Assembly: GCA_028277845.1 (NCBI GenBank)
Contig: JANQFL010000038.1
Coordinates: forward strand, 1 to 64,000
From: Sneathiellales bacterium
Lineage (GTDB): Bacteria > Pseudomonadota > Alphaproteobacteria > JANQFL01
Length of the DNA stretch: 64,000 nt
Direction of reading: 5' to 3'
In this document: positions 33,720-40,725 of the stretch, piece after piece
How the letters are laid out: every line of letters starts with the position of its first letter
Numbering within the stretch: the stretch's first letter is position 1
Position numbers and translations under genes: made by a program
Notes under the pieces: model-generated
The model's database searches: none
Seen by the model: the letters and a program-made list of their open reading frames with translations, nothing else
What the model was told of the DNA's origin: nothing

Positions 33720-33739
33720 CGAACATCGAAGGAATGGAA

Positions 33740-35875
33740 ATGTTCGATATTCATCGTAAGGAAATCACCTGGGGCGGCCGCAAGCTCGTCCTGGAAACCG
33801 GTAAAATCGCCCGTCAAGCGGATGCCGCCGTGCTGGCCACCTATGGCGAGACCACGGTGCTGTGCACCGCCGTCGCCCAGAAGGCCCCGCGGCCGGGCGT
33901 CGACTTTTTCCCGCTGACGGTCAATTACCAGGAAAAGACATTCGCCGCCGGCAAGATTCCAGGCGGCTTTTTTAAACGCGAAGGCCGGCCGGCCGAAAAG
34001 GAAACCCTGACTTCGCGTCTCATCGACCGGCCGATCCGGCCGCTGTTCGCCGACGGCTTCCGCAACGAGACCCAGGTCATCTGTACGGTCTTGAGCCACG
34101 ACCTGGAAAACGATCCCGACATCGTCGCCATGGTCGGCGCCTCCGCCGCCCTGACCCTGTCGGGCATCCCCTTCCTCGGCCCGATCGGCGCCGCCCGGAT
34201 CGGGTACATCGACGGCGAATACGTTCTGAACCCGCAGGCCGACGAACTGTCGTCGAGCCAGCTCGACCTGGTCGTCGCCGGGACCCAGGACGCCGTCATG
34301 ATGGTCGAATCGGAAGCCCACGAGCTGTCCGAAGACGTCATGCTCGGTGCCGTCATGTACGGCTTCAAGGAATTCCAGCCGGTCATCGACATGATCATCG
34401 ACCTGGCCGAGGCCTGCGCCAAGACGCCGTGGGACGTGCCGGAATCGGATACCCCCGAGGAACTGGCCGGCAAGATCGACGAGAAGTACGGCGCCGATCT
34501 GCGGGCCGCCTACCAGGAACGGGTCAAGCAGACCCGCACCGACAAGCTGGCGGAAATCAAGACCCGGGCGATCGAGGAACTGGGCGAGGAAGAGTACGAA
34601 GCGACCCACGTTTCAGACAAGATCAAGAGCCTGGAAAAGAAAATCGTCCGCGGCAGTATTCTCGACACCGGCGAGCGTATCGACGGCCGGACCACCACAC
34701 AGGTGCGTCCGATCGTCAGCGAAGTCGGCGTTCTGCCCCGCACCCACGGTGCCGCCCTGTTCACCCGCGGTGAAACCCAGGCGCTGGTGGTCACCACGCT
34801 GGGCACCGGCCAGGACGAGCAGATCATCGACGCCCTCGAGGGCGAATACCGCGAGCACTTCATGCTGCACTACAATTTCCCGCCCTATTCGGTCGGCGAG
34901 GCGTCGTTCCTGCGCTCTCCGGGCCGGCGGGAAATCGGTCACGGCAAGCTGGCGTGGCGGGCGGTGCATCCGCTGCTGCCGACCAAGGAAGAGTTCCCGT
35001 ACACCATGCGGGTGGTTTCGGAAATTACCGAATCCAACGGCTCGTCCTCCATGGCCACGGTTTGCGGCACCTCGCTGTCCCTGATGGATGCCGGCGTGCC
35101 GCTGAAGCGGCCGGTCGCCGGTATCGCCATGGGCCTGATCCTGGAAGACTCGGGCTATGCCGTGTTGTCCGATATCCTCGGCGACGAAGACCATCTCGGC
35201 GACATGGACTTCAAGGTGGCCGGCACCGAGGAAGGCGTCACCAGCCTGCAGATGGACATCAAGATCGCCGGTATCAACGAGGAGATCATGAAGAACGCCC
35301 TGGCCCAGGCCAAGGACGGACGCCTGCACATCCTCGGCGAAATGGCCAAGGCGCTGTCGGAGGGCCGCGAGACGGTCAACGCCAACGCGCCGCGCATCAC
35401 GACGATCCAGATTCCGCGCGACAAGATCCGCGAAGTCATCGGCACCGGCGGCAAGGTCATCCGCGAGATCACCGAGGAAACTGGCACCAAGATCGACATC
35501 GAGGACGACGGCACCATCAAGGTGGCCTCGACCGATGCCGCCGCCACCGACAAGGCGATCGACTGGATCAAGGGTATCGTCGCCGAGCCGGAAGTCGGCG
35601 TGATCTACAACGGAAAGGTGGTCAAGGTCGTCGACTTCGGTGCCTTCGTGAACTTCCTCGGCGCCCGTGACGGCCTGGTGCACATCAGCGAACTGGCGCC
35701 GCGCCGGGTCGGCAAGGTGACCGACGTGGTCAATGAAGGCGACAAGGTCAAGGTCAAGGTCCTCGGTATCGACGATCGCGGCAAAGTGCGTTTGAGCATG
35801 AAGGTCGTCGATCAGGAAACCGGTGAGGAAATCACGCCGGAGAAACCGCAAAAAGACGGCGATAGGGAAGATTGA
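33740..35875 (+). CDS. pnp: Polyribonucleotide nucleotidyltransferase (PNPase)
   Basis: 3'-5' phosphorolytic exoribonuclease of the RNA degradosome. The 711-residue protein has two RNase PH domains (about 10-225 and 310-540, with [22 protein letters not shown] and [15 protein letters not shown]), the helical linker, a KH domain ([20 protein letters not shown] near 560) and an S1 domain ([19 protein letters not shown] near 620). I chose the ATG at 33740 rather than 33734 because AAGGAATGGA then lies at normal distance and the family N-terminus is MFxIHRKE. Confidence 0.97.
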
Positions 35876-36029: not shown

Positions 36030-37430
36030 ATGACCAGTCTTGTCAATCCGGTGGTGATGTCCGGGCGCGAGGTTCTGCCGTTGATCGAGGGCGGCAAGGG
36101 TGTCTCCATCTCCACCGGGCAGAGCTCGGGAGCTTGGGCGGCCGCCGGTGGCATGGGCACGTTTTCGGCCGTCAACGCCGACAGCTACGACGAAAACGGC
36201 AAGCTGATCCTGCAATCCTACCAGGGCAAGACCCGCAAGGAACGCCATGAGGAATTGATCGCCTATGCCATCCGCGGTGGCATTGCGCAGGCCCGCATCG
36301 CCCACGACGTGGCCGGTGGCCAGGGCGGCATCCATATGAACGTTTTGTGGGAGATGGGCGGCGCCGAGCGGGTATTGCGCGGCGTGCTGGAAGGTGCCAA
36401 GGGCCTGGTGCACGGCGTCACCTGCGGTGCCGGCATGCCCTATAAGCTGAGCGAACTGGCGGCCGAATACGGCGTTCACTACTACCCGATCATTTCCTCG
36501 GCCCGGGCGTTCCGCGCCTTGTGGAAGCGGGCCTATCACAAGTTTTCCGACCTGATGGGTGGCGTCGTCTACGAGGATCCCTGGCGCGCCGGCGGCCACA
36601 ACGGCCTGTCCAATTCGGAAGACCCGCGCAATCCGGAAGATCCGTTTCCGCGGGTTCTGGCGCTGCGCAAGATCATGCGCGAGTTCGGCCTCGACAACGT
36701 GCCGATCATCATGGCCGGCGGCGTCTGGTATCTGCGCGAGTGGCGCGACTGGATCAACAACGCCGAACTCGGGCCCATCGCGTTTCAGTTCGGCACCCGG
36801 CCGTTGCTGACCAAGGAAAGCCCCATATCGGATGCCTGGAAGCGGAAACTTCTGTCGCTCAAGAAGGGCGACATTCTGCTCAACCGGTTCAGTCCGACGG
36901 GTTTTTGGTCGTCCGGCGTACGCAACGAGTTTCTGCGCGAACTGGAGGAGCGCCACGACCGGCAGTTGGCCTATACGACGGAACCTCTGGGCGAGCACCA
37001 GGCGGAGTTTCCCGTCGGCGCCCGCAAGCGCATGGTCTTTCTCACGCCCAGCGACAAGGAACTGGCCGAAAGCTGGTCGGCGCAGGGATTCACCGAACCC
37101 TTGAAGACACCCGATTCGACCCTGATGTTCGTGACCCCGGAGAAGGCCCAGGAAATCCGGCAGGATCAGATCGACTGCATGGGCTGCCTGTCCCAGTGCC
37201 TGTTCTCCAACTGGGCGGACAACGAGGCCGCGACGTCGGGCAAACGGGCCGATCCGCGCAGCTTCTGCATCCAGAAGACGTTGCAGGACATCGCCCATTC
37301 CGACGAAGTGGATCACAACCTGATGTTTGCCGGCCATGCGGCGTATCGCTTTGCCGACGATCCGTTCTATTCAAACGGTTTTATTCCATCGGTAAAACAA
37401 CTGGTCGAACGTATTGTGACCGGGGATTGA
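36030..37430 (+). CDS. Nitronate monooxygenase-family flavoprotein with a C-terminal cysteine cluster
   Basis: A 466-residue TIM-barrel flavoprotein of the 2-nitropropane dioxygenase/nitronate monooxygenase superfamily. The FMN-barrel features include GVTCGAGMPYKLSELA (about residues 131-146), VPIIMAGGVW (about 227) and FQFGTRPL. It is longer than typical family members, and its C-terminal part carries C383, C386 and C390 (CMGCLSQC) plus C413, which could hold a Fe-S cluster. Substrate cannot be inferred. The ATG at 36030 has GGGAG 9 nt upstream; an ATG at 35970 would add 20 residues. A strong terminator follows, then irr. Confidence 0.75.
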   Translation: MTSLVNPVVMSGREVLPLIEGGKGVSISTGQSSGAWAAAGGMGTFSAVNADSYDENGKLILQSYQGKTRKERHEELIAYAIRGGIAQARIAHDVAGGQGGIHMNVLWEMGGAERVLRGVLEGAKGLVHGVTCGAGMPYKLSELAAEYGVHYYPIISSARAFRALWKRAYHKFSDLMGGVVYEDPWRAGGHNGLSNSEDPRNPEDPFPRVLALRKIMREFGLDNVPIIMAGGVWYLREWRDWINNAELGPIAFQFGTRPLLTKESPISDAWKRKLLSLKKGDILLNRFSPTGFWSSGVRNEFLRELEERHDRQLAYTTEPLGEHQAEFPVGARKRMVFLTPSDKELAESWSAQGFTEPLKTPDSTLMFVTPEKAQEIRQDQIDCMGCLSQCLFSNWADNEAATSGKRADPRSFCIQKTLQDIAHSDEVDHNLMFAGHAAYRFADDPFYSNGFIPSVKQLVERIVTGD

Positions 37431-37521: not shown

Positions 37522-37947
37522 ATGGGGATGATGCGTAACCGACCTTTCACCGATATCCTGGCTCGTCTGCGAACGGCCGGACTGCGGCCGACGCGGCAGC
37601 GCCTGGCTTTGGGGAAGCTGCTTTTTGCCGACGGCAACCGCCACGTGACGGCCGAAATGCTGCACGAGGAAGCGGTCGACAACAAGATCCAGGTGTCGCT
37701 GGCGACCGTCTATAATACCCTCAACCAGTTCACCGATGCCGGATTGCTGCGCGAAGTGGTCGTTGAATCGGGCCGGTCCTACTTCGACACCAACACCAGC
37801 GAGCATCACCACATCTTCCACGTCGACAATGGCGCACTGGAGGATTTGTCCGACGACTCCATGCGCCTGGTGGAGTTGCCGGTATTGCCGGAAGGCACGC
37901 AGTTGGAGCGCGTCGACATCGTTATCCGGGTTCGGAACTCGAACTAA
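37522..37947 (+). CDS. irr: Iron response regulator Irr (Fur superfamily)
   Basis: A 141-residue heme-responsive iron regulator of alphaproteobacteria; in Rhizobiales Irr represses or activates genes under iron limitation through ICE boxes. Recognised by LRPTRQRLALGKLLF, the recognition helix VSLATVYNTLNQFTDAGLL, and the diagnostic His run at H95-H97 (SEHHHIFH). The Bradyrhizobium-type N-terminal heme regulatory motif is absent, as in Rhizobium. No ribosome site precedes the ATG at 37522; ATGs at 37528 and 37531 are equally possible and the transcript may be nearly leaderless. Rubrerythrin follows. Confidence 0.9.
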   Translation: MGMMRNRPFTDILARLRTAGLRPTRQRLALGKLLFADGNRHVTAEMLHEEAVDNKIQVSLATVYNTLNQFTDAGLLREVVVESGRSYFDTNTSEHHHIFHVDNGALEDLSDDSMRLVELPVLPEGTQLERVDIVIRVRNSN

Positions 37948-37990
37948 TTTGATAACGATTTTCAATCTCTTAAATCATAAATTAAATTTG

Positions 37991-38029
37991 TTCTAAACTG
38001 TTGACCGGGGCAGTACGTGTGCCTATATT
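37991..38029 (+). promoter_or_regulatory. Strong promoter of rubrerythrin with an Irr-box-like half site
   Basis: TTGACC at 38001-38006 and TATATT at 38024-38029 are exactly 17 nt apart, the best sigma70-like promoter seen in the window. Just upstream, TTCTAAA at 37991-37997 equals the right half of the ICE consensus (TTTAGAA-N3-TTCTAAA); the left half is a poor match (about 4 of 7). About 100 nt of leader then precede the ATG at 38131. Confidence 0.6.
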
Positions 38030-38130
38030 GACGGTGTGGCGCTGGCGAAACGCGGCGATAATGCTGTGATCGCCGGTGCTCGGCGATCTCATTCGTTTGA
38101 TTAGACATTACCCGTCAACAGGAGGACCTC

Positions 38131-38550
38131 ATGCCGTCATTAGCGGGCACGAAAACCGAACAAAATCTGAAAGACGCGTTCGCCGGCGAAAGCCAGGCCA
38201 ACCGCCGCTATCTCTATTTCGCCCAGAAGGCCGACATCGAAGGCTACAACGATGTCGCCGCCGTGTTCCGTTCGACCGCCGAAGGCGAAACCGGCCATGC
38301 CCATGGCCATCTGGAATATCTGGAAGAAACCGGTGATCCGGCGACCGGCGAACCGATCGGCGATACCTCGGCCAATCTGAAGGCGTCCATCGCCGGCGAG
38401 ACCCACGAATACACCGACATGTACCCGAGCATGGCCAAGGCCGCCCGGGACGAAGGGTTCGACGAAATCGCCGATTGGTTCGAAACCCTCGCCAAGGCGG
38501 AAAAGAGTCACGCCGGCCGCTTCCAGAAAGCGCTCGACACGATGGAATAA
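38131..38550 (+). CDS. Rubrerythrin without rubredoxin domain
   Basis: A 139-residue diiron peroxidase of the rubrerythrin family that reduces hydrogen peroxide. Four-helix-bundle ligands are visible: E20 (GESQANRRY), E53 and H56 (EGETGHAHGH), E90/E93 (GETHEYTDMY), E124 and H127 (AEKSHAGRF). The C-terminal rubredoxin domain of classical rubrerythrins is missing, so electrons must come from another protein. AGGAGG at 38120-38125 is a near-perfect ribosome site. It follows irr and precedes a Fe-S protein gene and a DUF3501 gene. Confidence 0.93.
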   Translation: MPSLAGTKTEQNLKDAFAGESQANRRYLYFAQKADIEGYNDVAAVFRSTAEGETGHAHGHLEYLEETGDPATGEPIGDTSANLKASIAGETHEYTDMYPSMAKAARDEGFDEIADWFETLAKAEKSHAGRFQKALDTME

Positions 38551-38587
38551 CCGGGCCGGTCCGATCCGGACACACCCGTACCGACGT

Positions 38588-38637
38588 TCGAACCGTTCGG
38601 TTCGACATGGCAACCGGGGTTCATAGCCCCGGTTGCC
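38588..38637 (+). terminator. Two inverted repeats after rubrerythrin
   Basis: TCGAACCG (38588-38595) pairs with CGGTTCGA (38598-38605), and GGCAACCGGGG (38609-38619) pairs with CCCCGGTTGCC (38627-38637), both perfect. There is no T tract, so the second stem may be an intrinsic partial terminator or an RNA-stability stem that sets a high rubrerythrin to downstream-gene ratio. Confidence 0.5.
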
Positions 38638-38760
38638 CCACTCTCCGAGTTTGATTTGCCTGGCCCGTTTGTCGGGGTACCCAGTACCGCGCACCGTGCG
38701 TGTGGGCCATCGCAATCTAAGGGGCACACAAACCGGTGCCGCAACGAAAAGAGGGCCATT

Positions 38761-40098
38761 ATGCGTGAAGGCAGTCTCGAAGCCCCCGTCCGTCATCCGT
38801 TGGATTGGAACAATCCCGAGTTTTATGACGCCGAAAAGATCGATGAAGAACTTCGGCGCGTCTTCGATATCTGCCACGGCTGCCGGCGCTGCTTCAATCT
38901 GTGCGACAGCTTTCCCCGGCTGTTCGATCTGATCGACGAATCGGACACGGGCGAACTGGACTCGGTCTCAAGCGACAATTTCGGCCCCGTCGTTGACGCC
39001 TGCACCCTGTGCGACCTGTGCTTCATGACCAAGTGCCCCTATGTTCCGCCGCACGAATTCAACCTCGATTTTCCGCACCTGATGCTGCGATACCGGGCGG
39101 CGCAGCACCGCCAGGGCAAAACGACCTTCGCCGCGAAACAACTCAGCCGGACCGACCGCAACGGCAAGCTGGCCGGCCTGGCGCCGGGCCTGGCCAACTG
39201 GGCCGGCAAAACGGGCAACGGCCTGACCCGGCCGGTCATGGAATCCGCCATCGGCATCGATCGGGAAGCCCATCTGCCCAAGTTTCACGGCAAGACCTTC
39301 GTCGCCCGGTCGAAATCCGGCGGCCCGGCCGTCAATACCGATGCGCCGGCGCATGGCCGCAAGGCCGTGATCTACTCCACCTGTTTCGTCAACTACAACA
39401 ATCCCGGCATCGGCGAAGCCGCGCGCGCGGTTCTGGCCAGGAACGGCGTCGAGACCGAAGTGGTGCATCCGGCCTGCTGCGGCATGCCGCTCCTCGAACA
39501 CGGCGACATTGGCGCCGTGGCGGACCGGGCGCGCAAGGTGTCGGCCGAACTGATACCGTGGATTGACAAGGGCTATGACGTCATCGCCCTGGTACCGTCC
39601 TGCGCCTTGATGCTGAAATTCGAGTGGCCCCTGATCCTGCCCGGCGACCAGACCGTGAAGACATTGGCCCAGGCGACGTTCGATATCAGCGAATACGTCG
39701 TTGACATCGCCAAAAAGGAAGGCCTGGCGGATGGCATGCAGGCGCTCGACGGCGGCACGGCGCTGCATTTGGCGTGCCATGCCCGGGCCCAGAACATGGG
39801 GCCGAAGGCGGCGGAAATGCTGCGGCTGATCCCTGAAGCCGATGTCGCCGTCATCGATCGCTGCTCCGGCCACGGCGGTTCCTGGGGCATCATGAAGGAC
39901 AATTTCCAGACAGCCCTCAAGGTCGGCAAGCCCGTTGCCCGCCAGGCCGCCAAGGCGGGTAAGGCATTCGTCGCCTCGGAATGCCCGTTGGCCGGCGACC
40001 ACATTTTGCAGGGCATGGAACGGCTGGATACGGAGGTATCCGTCGAGCAGGCCCACCACCCCATTGAACTAGTGGCCAGAGCCTACGGGCTGGCGTAA
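38761..40098 (+). CDS. GlpC/HdrB-like Fe-S oxidoreductase (rubrerythrin-associated)
   Basis: A 445-residue cytoplasmic Fe-S protein. N-terminal cluster motifs are C38-C41-C44-C48 (CHGCRRCFNLC) and C81-C84-C87-C92 (CTLCDLCFMTKC; last spacing is four rather than three). Two CCG-type cysteine-rich regions follow: C208...C239-C240-G (HPACCGMPLLEHGD) and C339...C368-S369-G370, where Ser replaces the second Cys. The layout matches anaerobic glycerol-3-phosphate dehydrogenase subunit C and heterodisulfide reductase-like proteins, but no glpA/glpB partner is present. It lies between rubrerythrin and DUF3501 and is a candidate electron donor to rubrerythrin. ATG at 38761; earlier frame overlaps the hairpin region. 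Confidence 0.85.
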   Translation: MREGSLEAPVRHPLDWNNPEFYDAEKIDEELRRVFDICHGCRRCFNLCDSFPRLFDLIDESDTGELDSVSSDNFGPVVDACTLCDLCFMTKCPYVPPHEFNLDFPHLMLRYRAAQHRQGKTTFAAKQLSRTDRNGKLAGLAPGLANWAGKTGNGLTRPVMESAIGIDREAHLPKFHGKTFVARSKSGGPAVNTDAPAHGRKAVIYSTCFVNYNNPGIGEAARAVLARNGVETEVVHPACCGMPLLEHGDIGAVADRARKVSAELIPWIDKGYDVIALVPSCALMLKFEWPLILPGDQTVKTLAQATFDISEYVVDIAKKEGLADGMQALDGGTALHLACHARAQNMGPKAAEMLRLIPEADVAVIDRCSGHGGSWGIMKDNFQTALKVGKPVARQAAKAGKAFVASECPLAGDHILQGMERLDTEVSVEQAHHPIELVARAYGLA

Positions 40099-40116
40099 AA
40101 GGCAAAGCAGTACGTT

Positions 40117-40725
40117 ATGTCCATGACCATCGACACCGCCATGAAACATGAAATCACCCGCGACGACATTCTGCCTCTGGCGGAATACGAAGCCATCCGC
40201 AGCGAAAAGCGCGGCGAACTGATCGCGCAGAAAAGAAGCCGCCGCGTCGCGGTCGGTCCCTATGCCACCTTCTATTTCGAAAATTACGACACCATGTGGT
40301 GGCAGATCCACGAAATGCTGCGCATCGAGAAAGGCGGCGAAGAGCAGATCGCCGACGAACTGGCGGCATACAACCCGCTCATTCCCAACGGCCGCGACCT
40401 GGTCGCCACGGTCATGTTCGAGATCGAAGATCCGGAGCGGCGCAATGTCATCCTGCGTGGGCTGGGGGGTGTCGAGGACTGCATCGAAATGCGCATCGGC
40501 GACGATGTCATTGCCGCCTGGTCGGAACAGGACGTGGAACGCACCAAGGAAGACGGCAAAACGTCGTCCATTCACTTCGTGCATTTCGACCTGACCGGCG
40601 AACAGGTGACCGCTTTCCGCGACCCGTCCGTCACGGTGATCCTGGGTATCAGTCATGAAAACTACGGTCATATGGCGGTGCTGCCGCCGGTCACCCGGGA
40701 CAGTCTTGGCCACGATCTGGATTAG
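40117..40725 (+). CDS. DUF3501 family protein
   Basis: A 202-residue soluble protein of a family with no function I know. Distinctive segments are RDDILPLAEYEAIRSEKRGELIAQKRSRRV (first 20: RDDILPLAEYEAIRSEKRGE), FYFENYDTMWWQIHEMLRIE and FVHFDLTGEQVTAFRD. No cysteines that could bind a cluster in a motif and no membrane segment are visible. It starts 18 nt after the Fe-S protein and is clearly in its operon. I recall the rubrerythrin/Fe-S protein/DUF3501 trio as recurring in Proteobacteria but cannot check that here. Confidence 0.8.
   Translation: MSMTIDTAMKHEITRDDILPLAEYEAIRSEKRGELIAQKRSRRVAVGPYATFYFENYDTMWWQIHEMLRIEKGGEEQIADELAAYNPLIPNGRDLVATVMFEIEDPERRNVILRGLGGVEDCIEMRIGDDVIAAWSEQDVERTKEDGKTSSIHFVHFDLTGEQVTAFRDPSVTVILGISHENYGHMAVLPPVTRDSLGHDLD

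Follow-up and report, generated by a model that had tools for sequence, protein, structure and literature searches.

The gene at positions 36030 to 37430 of the window, the whole 64,000-nucleotide stretch of the Sneathiellales bacterium contig JANQFL010000038.1 that was analysed, carries a nitronate monooxygenase (NMO) family label that misleads. Its 466-residue product is very probably an acyl-ACP dehydrogenase/isomerase with FMN and a [4Fe-4S] cluster which, like FabX of Helicobacter pylori, would replace FabA in the synthesis of unsaturated fatty acids (UFA). This reading is built on the match to FabX in sequence, structural model and corresponding residues, on conservation, on the lack of overlap with FabA in both genome samples examined, on alternation with fabA-fabB on the chromosome and on the FAS-II gene set of the host; the cluster, substrate, reaction, isomerisation and electron acceptor are predictions, with the chemical steps taken from FabX.

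Similarity of the window protein to H. pylori FabX

The mechanically called open reading frame opens earlier, at TTG 35970; from the start used here (Table 1) the protein has 466 residues, whereas 22 NMO/FabK-like paralogues from this class have 305-344, in keeping with the original prediction that it is longer than usual. PF03060 (NMO) matches residues 128-463 with 55.2 bits, above the gathering score of 28, and the protein is thus a member of the NMO superfamily. Among the best 80 of 571 confirmed loci, the best named relatives belong to Rhodospirillales and other Alphaproteobacteria, with protein identities of up to 73%. We refer to the window protein and its homologues of this length as the long form.

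The best match among PDB sequences is FabX (1.6e-23), while the first FabK appears at 0.0011; the matched H. pylori sequence was deposited under the title '2-nitropropane dioxygenase'. An AlphaFold2 model of the 466-residue protein (pLDDT 92.9, pTM 0.91) aligns with FabX (PDB 7E1Q) at Z 40.1 and an rmsd of 2.7 over 354 residues of the 366-residue chain, with 28% identity in the structural alignment. The second-best structural family is FabK, whose best match reaches Z 30.7 over 301 residues, some 10 Z units lower. The suspicion, voiced with the original prediction, that the family label is misleading is borne out.

Sections of the FabX paper (PMC8626469) describe an FMN enzyme of the NMO family that carries its [4Fe-4S] cluster on C300, C304, C308 and C320, with H182 as the catalytic residue, S273 as the partner of H182 and Met24 as an FMN contact. 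The enzyme is presented there as the acyl-ACP dehydrogenase/isomerase of UFA synthesis in H. pylori, an organism given as lacking fabA; oxygen is said to be needed as acceptor, the cluster to be oxygen-sensitive, and the occurrence of FabX to be mostly in microaerophilic or anaerobic bacteria (PMC8626469).

Like FabX (HP0773), the window protein is an NMO-type FMN barrel. The catalytic His is kept, in all 169 distinct long-form sequences, and so are the four aligned cysteines and most of the FMN-contacting positions; most, though not all, of the ACP-binding positions agree as well. The FMN contacts N99, E175, Q240, F339 and G341 of FabX correspond to N104, E182, Q253, F433 and G435, each invariant in 68 of 68 long forms. 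The equivalent of S273, S288, is Ser in the same 68 sequences and in 20/20 of the shorter FabX-like proteins (short forms) described below, but in only 1 of the 22 NMO paralogues. At the ACP-binding positions, K152 and R160 correspond to R159 and R167 in 68/68 long forms, the R167 column being a gap in all 22 NMO paralogues, and the column of R164, which holds K171 in the window protein, is basic in 61 of 68 (Lys in 50, Arg in 11). The column of T130, a further ACP-binding residue of FabX, has Tyr in 64 and Phe in 4 of the 68 sequences, with Tyr138 in the window protein.

Table 1. Window positions of the long-form gene, of codons and segments discussed in the text and of neighbouring genes.
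Feature	Positions	Strand	Basis or remark
Long-form FabX-like CDS (466 aa; family label NMO)	36030..37430	+	ATG 36030, TGA 37428-37430
Lys23 codon, at the FabX Met24 position (FMN contact)	36096..36098	+	alignment
Segment R159...R167...K171, aligned with ACP-binding K152/R160/R164 of FabX	36504..36542	+	alignment
His190 codon (equivalent of FabX H182, the catalytic His)	36597..36599	+	alignment
Alpha/beta insert of ~70 residues (311-383 in the model) that separates the barrel from the Cys motif	36960..37178	+	
Cys383-x2-Cys386-x3-Cys390, predicted cluster ligands (FabX C300, C304, C308)	37176..37199	+	alignment
Cys413, predicted fourth ligand (FabX C320)	37266..37268	+	combined and profile alignments
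F433-A434-G435, aligned with FMN-contacting F339-T340-G341 of FabX	37326..37334	+	alignment
pnp (polynucleotide phosphorylase; presumed name), upstream neighbour	33734..35875	+	
irr (IrrA), downstream neighbour	37522..37947	+	NF045678, 204.7 bits, cut-off 150
Rubrerythrin-like protein (short), irr-rbr-glpC-like-DUF3501 block	38131..38550	+	
GlpC-like Fe-S protein with two CCG stretches, block as above	38764..40098	+	start uncertain; mechanical ORF from 38656
DUF3501 protein, same block	40117..40725	+	

Four conserved C-terminal cysteines

The original prediction proposed that C383, C386, C390 and C413 could hold an Fe-S cluster that ordinary NMOs do not have. All four cysteines are found at these positions in the protein and coincide with the [4Fe-4S] ligands of FabX. 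They are kept in 68/68 distinct homologues of 47-73% identity, drawn from 68 of the 133 class genomes with the gene, and are invariant in 169/169 distinct sequences (186 rows matching the family profile at E <= 1e-100, a line that fragments did not reach); the proposal that they should be conserved among close homologues of this length therefore holds. The 22 NMO/FabK-like class paralogues (30 loci picked, 8 dropped where the ORF taken did not match the family) have no Cys in any of the four aligned columns. On the strength of these alignments, the four residues are likely to bind an Fe-S cluster. Their spacing in the window protein, C-x2-C-x3-C-x22-C, differs from the C-x3-C-x3-C-x11-C of FabX. 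The FabX ligand equivalent to C386 is described as the one of the four that tolerates replacement (PMC8626469). A fifth cysteine, C132 (36423-36425), is kept in 167 of the 169 long forms and is Ser in the other two.

The long form as a distinct subfamily

The long form is a distinct long FabX-like subfamily. The position of the FMN-contacting Met24 of FabX is Lys in 169/169 long forms, whereas all 20 short forms and all 22 NMO paralogues have Met there. FabX has no counterpart of the insert that follows the barrel, and neither do 18 of the 20 short forms examined, the remaining two being divergent and poorly aligned here. When modelled alone, the 73-residue insert gave a pLDDT of 94.1 and a pTM of 0.73. 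It found no match with Foldseek at E <= 0.001 and none with VIA-align at Z >= 5 among 417 chains (best 2.4), and Pfam returned scattered weak matches only, no family being hit by more than 2 of 46 members; a missing fold match does not establish the fold of the insert as new. Lys23 and the insert could mean that electron transfer or substrate differs from that of FabX.

With 466 residues compared with the 363 of FabX, 28% identity, the extra ~70-residue insert, Lys23 for Met24, Tyr138 for T130 and a different cysteine spacing, the window protein falls outside FabX in the narrow sense, that is, the 363-residue architecture without insert, the C-x3-C-x3-C-x11-C motif and the more than 50% identity to HP0773 that served as the criterion of the published census, as set out in sections of that paper (PMC8626469). 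Most likely, judging by analogy, it works like FabX all the same. The long form is also found in other organisms than FabX, namely in Alphaproteobacteria and a Mariprofundus-like group.

A tree was rebuilt from 20 of the 68 long forms, 18 short forms, FabX and 16 of the 22 confirmed paralogues, leaving out two divergent relatives (L239, L240) in which not all Cys columns align. The long form, short forms and FabX together were separated from the NMO paralogues at 100/100, and the long form was one group at 100/100. In an earlier tree, whose five outgroup rows (picked with L259) all failed the NMO family match, the long form was one group at 81/87. Long branches lead to FabX and to the long form in the trees, and the program warns of long-branch joins; in the rebuilt tree the short forms and FabX do not form one group, and no firm branching order of the long form and the two short types emerges.

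Distribution of the long form and FabA

We compared the occurrence of the long form and FabA in 241 genomes of the class that are at least 90% complete. The long form was present in 133 and FabA in 92 (89 over the TIGR01749 cut-off and three at 214-232 bits, just under it), with both in none and neither in 16. Counting one genome for each of the first 118 families gave 66 with the long form, 43 with FabA, none with both and nine with neither. In a phylum sample of 299 genomes, which has class genomes in common with the 241, the long form occurs in 74, a short form in 41, FabA in 166 and none of them in 18, and neither form overlaps FabA. The occurrence of FabA in 0/133 and 0/74 long-form genomes of the class and phylum samples, respectively, is a correlation among genomes that are not independent and may share ancestry; kinship is addressed only by the one-genome-per-family count and by two families with both states (f107 and f78, below).

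Both genes are missing from 16 class genomes, which measure 0.7-2.0 Mb and gave no long-form profile match at 1e-5; two of them have an FA_desaturase-family gene. Named carriers of the long form, by record title among the best 80 of 571 loci, include Azospirillum, Roseomonas, Paramagnetospirillum and Skermanella, and several of the named hosts are presumably aerobes.

Outside the class, the long form was found in 42 of the 74 phylum genomes, 39 of them in family f150 and three in f169. The f150 proteins are up to 94% identical to that of a metagenome-assembled genome (MAG) titled Mariprofundus. This MAG and f150 (L183, L200, L204-L223) belong to another class, and the proteins compared from this group have 67-71% identity with that of the window. 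Such identity is high for a different class and may reflect either horizontal transfer or inheritance from a remote common ancestor.

Either the long form or fabA-fabB beside pnp and irr

In the window, the long-form gene lies downstream of a gene that we take to be pnp, and irr starts 91 bp beyond its end on the same strand, so that the adjacency to irr noted earlier is confirmed. Its generality was assessed in loci with enough flank, from the best 80 of 571 named loci and from 40 of the 133 class loci, the latter chosen mainly for divergence. Directly upstream, pnp was found in 49/75 named and 20/40 class loci; irr was directly downstream (within 700 bp) in 26/74 named and 10/39 class loci, in a search with the window's own Irr at 1e-8 that may miss diverged copies. 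The full series of pnp, long form, irr, rubrerythrin, GlpC-like and DUF3501 genes in one direction is seen in 7/40 class loci and 14 of those best 80 named loci, many of the others being short stretches.

The corresponding place was examined in 20 of the 92 FabA loci, mostly the best-scoring ones; ten proteins from four loci served to verify which genes these are. In 14 of the 20, fabA and irr are divergent with fabB alongside, within 0.5 kb in 13 and at 1.5 kb in one, and fabI was seen in 12 of these 14; no irr was seen in the other six, of which one or more are short contigs. Five of the 14 (L100, L101, L104, L105, L110) have the order pnp>(fabI<)fabB<fabA<irr>, compared with pnp>nmo>irr> for the long form. 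The irr-rubrerythrin-GlpC-like-DUF3501 block (37522-40725 in the window) recurs in loci of either type, with fabA or with the long form.

Two families contain both states. In f107, one genome (L282) has pnp>nmo>irr>rbr>, and in another (L281) fabA and fabB lie directly downstream of pnp and in its direction, on a contig that ends before the irr side. In f78, one genome (L280) has fabI-fabB-fabA beside irr and no pnp within 16 kb, and in the other (L283) pnp is the neighbour of the long form and no irr was seen. Of the two, f107 alone shows a change at the same place. Because fabA-fabB stands beside irr in FabA-type relatives, this place marks genes of UFA synthesis, and the position of the long form before irr is thereby explained without a role in iron sensing.

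Fatty acid synthesis genes of the host

The host genome, which is 98.5% complete, contains a single match to the FabA/FabZ family, FabZ, and FabA was not found in it. FabI is present at 58% identity, and the only match to alphaproteobacterial FabB at E <= 1e-20 is FabF, so that FabB was not found either. This FAS-II context resembles that of H. pylori, for which sections of the FabX paper list FabZ, FabI and FabF and neither FabA nor FabB (PMC8626469). Four further genes of the host score over the cut-off of the FA_desaturase family, one of which looks AlkB-like when read by eye; given these genes, a second, oxygen-dependent route of desaturation may also exist.

Proposed reaction and alternative assignments

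FabA has an unrelated hot-dog fold and no redox cofactor. It has in common with the long form the predicted product, cis-3-decenoyl-ACP, and the chromosomal place, with a mutually exclusive distribution; the substrate from which it starts is hydroxyacyl-ACP (PMC8626469). By analogy with FabX, ACP loaded with a medium-length saturated acyl chain, decanoyl in the case of H. pylori, would dock on the basic residues R159, R167 and K171; His190 and FMN would take two hydrogens to give trans-2-enoyl-ACP, which would isomerise to the cis-3 form in the tunnel, and the cluster on C383, C386, C390 and C413 would accept one electron from FMN. FabF would then elongate the cis-3 product, the double bond being retained into membrane lipids.

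Three other assignments were considered and rejected on the basis of family score, the cysteines of the paralogues, FabA exclusion and the irr counts. FabK and NMO-type proteins (PF03060, TIGR03151) share the fold, the FMN site and the catalytic His with the window protein but lack its four-Cys subdomain and insert, and at position 23 the 22/22 class paralogues have Met; FabK is its second-best structural family. Yet a FabK-type, NAD(P)H-dependent enoyl-ACP reductase of saturated chain elongation is a highly improbable identity for it: the TIGR03151 (FabK) match of 33.5 bits is far under the curated cut-off of 453.1, the host already has FabI, and a reductase would leave the exclusion with FabA unexplained. 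That the protein is a true nitronate monooxygenase, or a quinone reductase, detoxifying nitro compounds or quinones agrees with its PF03060 score but is scarcely credible, since the four cysteines are missing from 22/22 NMO-like paralogues, which also differ at R167 and, in all but one, at S288, seven other host proteins match TIGR03151 at 1e-15, and a dispensable detoxifier would not be expected to exclude FabA in 133/133 genomes.

The original prediction had also read an iron- or redox-linked role from the position before irr. A functional tie to Irr would suit the close, same-strand spacing of the two genes, the rubrerythrin and GlpC-like Fe-S protein in the neighbouring block and the possible sensitivity of an Fe-S enzyme to iron status. 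We nevertheless consider it very unlikely, as irr is adjacent in a minority of long-form loci and its neighbour in 14/20 FabA loci is fabA-fabB, FabA not being an Fe-S enzyme. The proposed neighbourhood analysis thus confirmed the adjacency itself, and gave it meaning as a place of UFA genes rather than as a sign of an iron role.

Against the preferred FabX-like acyl-ACP dehydrogenase/isomerase stand the 28% identity, the different cysteine spacing and the change of T130 to Tyr, as well as the oxygen dependence of FabX and its mostly microaerophilic or anaerobic hosts, compared with several presumably aerobic hosts of the long form. A tentative and rather doubtful extension is that long-form proteins constitute a FabX type of their own, one that does without molecular oxygen as acceptor. 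Lys23, the altered cluster loop and the extra domain would then re-tune FMN and the cluster and give a protein or quinone acceptor a place to dock, which would ease the tension between an oxygen-using FabX and aerobic hosts. If this were so, aerobic, microaerophilic and phototrophic Alphaproteobacteria and Mariprofundus-like iron oxidisers would make UFA by dehydrogenation, with electrons passed onward rather than released as superoxide.

In 66 of 118 class families, at one genome each, FabA is missing and the mislabelled gene is the obvious candidate for producing unsaturated membrane lipids. If the replacement of FabA by a FabX-like enzyme is correct, it would explain UFA synthesis in these organisms, make one step of membrane synthesis iron-dependent and put right an annotation that misleads in much of a bacterial class. 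It would also provide a clear-cut example of a single chromosomal place that is occupied by one or the other of two unrelated enzymes.

Related proteins and short forms

UfaA (NGO1024) of Neisseria gonorrhoeae belongs to the same superfamily as the window protein and, going by the title of an article by Isabella and Clark from 2011, is said to be relevant to bacteria without FabA. Searches of open-licence literature turned up no report of the role proposed here in Alphaproteobacteria; Isabella & Clark 2011 and Bi et al. 2016 lie outside that scope and may mention homologues. As stated in portions of one paper, the gonococcal homologue UfaA is needed for anaerobic UFA synthesis and its electron acceptor is unknown (PMC11300592), and portions of another raise the same possibility for Ralstonia (PMC4549310).

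In the 299 phylum genomes, short FabX-like matches scored 59-121 bits, mostly over the barrel only. Of the 20 short forms examined from the 41 matches, 18 have all four cysteines aligned, with three residues between the first two in eight, as in FabX, and five in the other ten; our guess is that those with C-x5-C-x3-C-x12-C are of the UfaA type. The two relatives left out of the tree, from two phylum genomes, are proteins of ~415-425 residues on a long branch, with several C-terminal cysteines in another arrangement.
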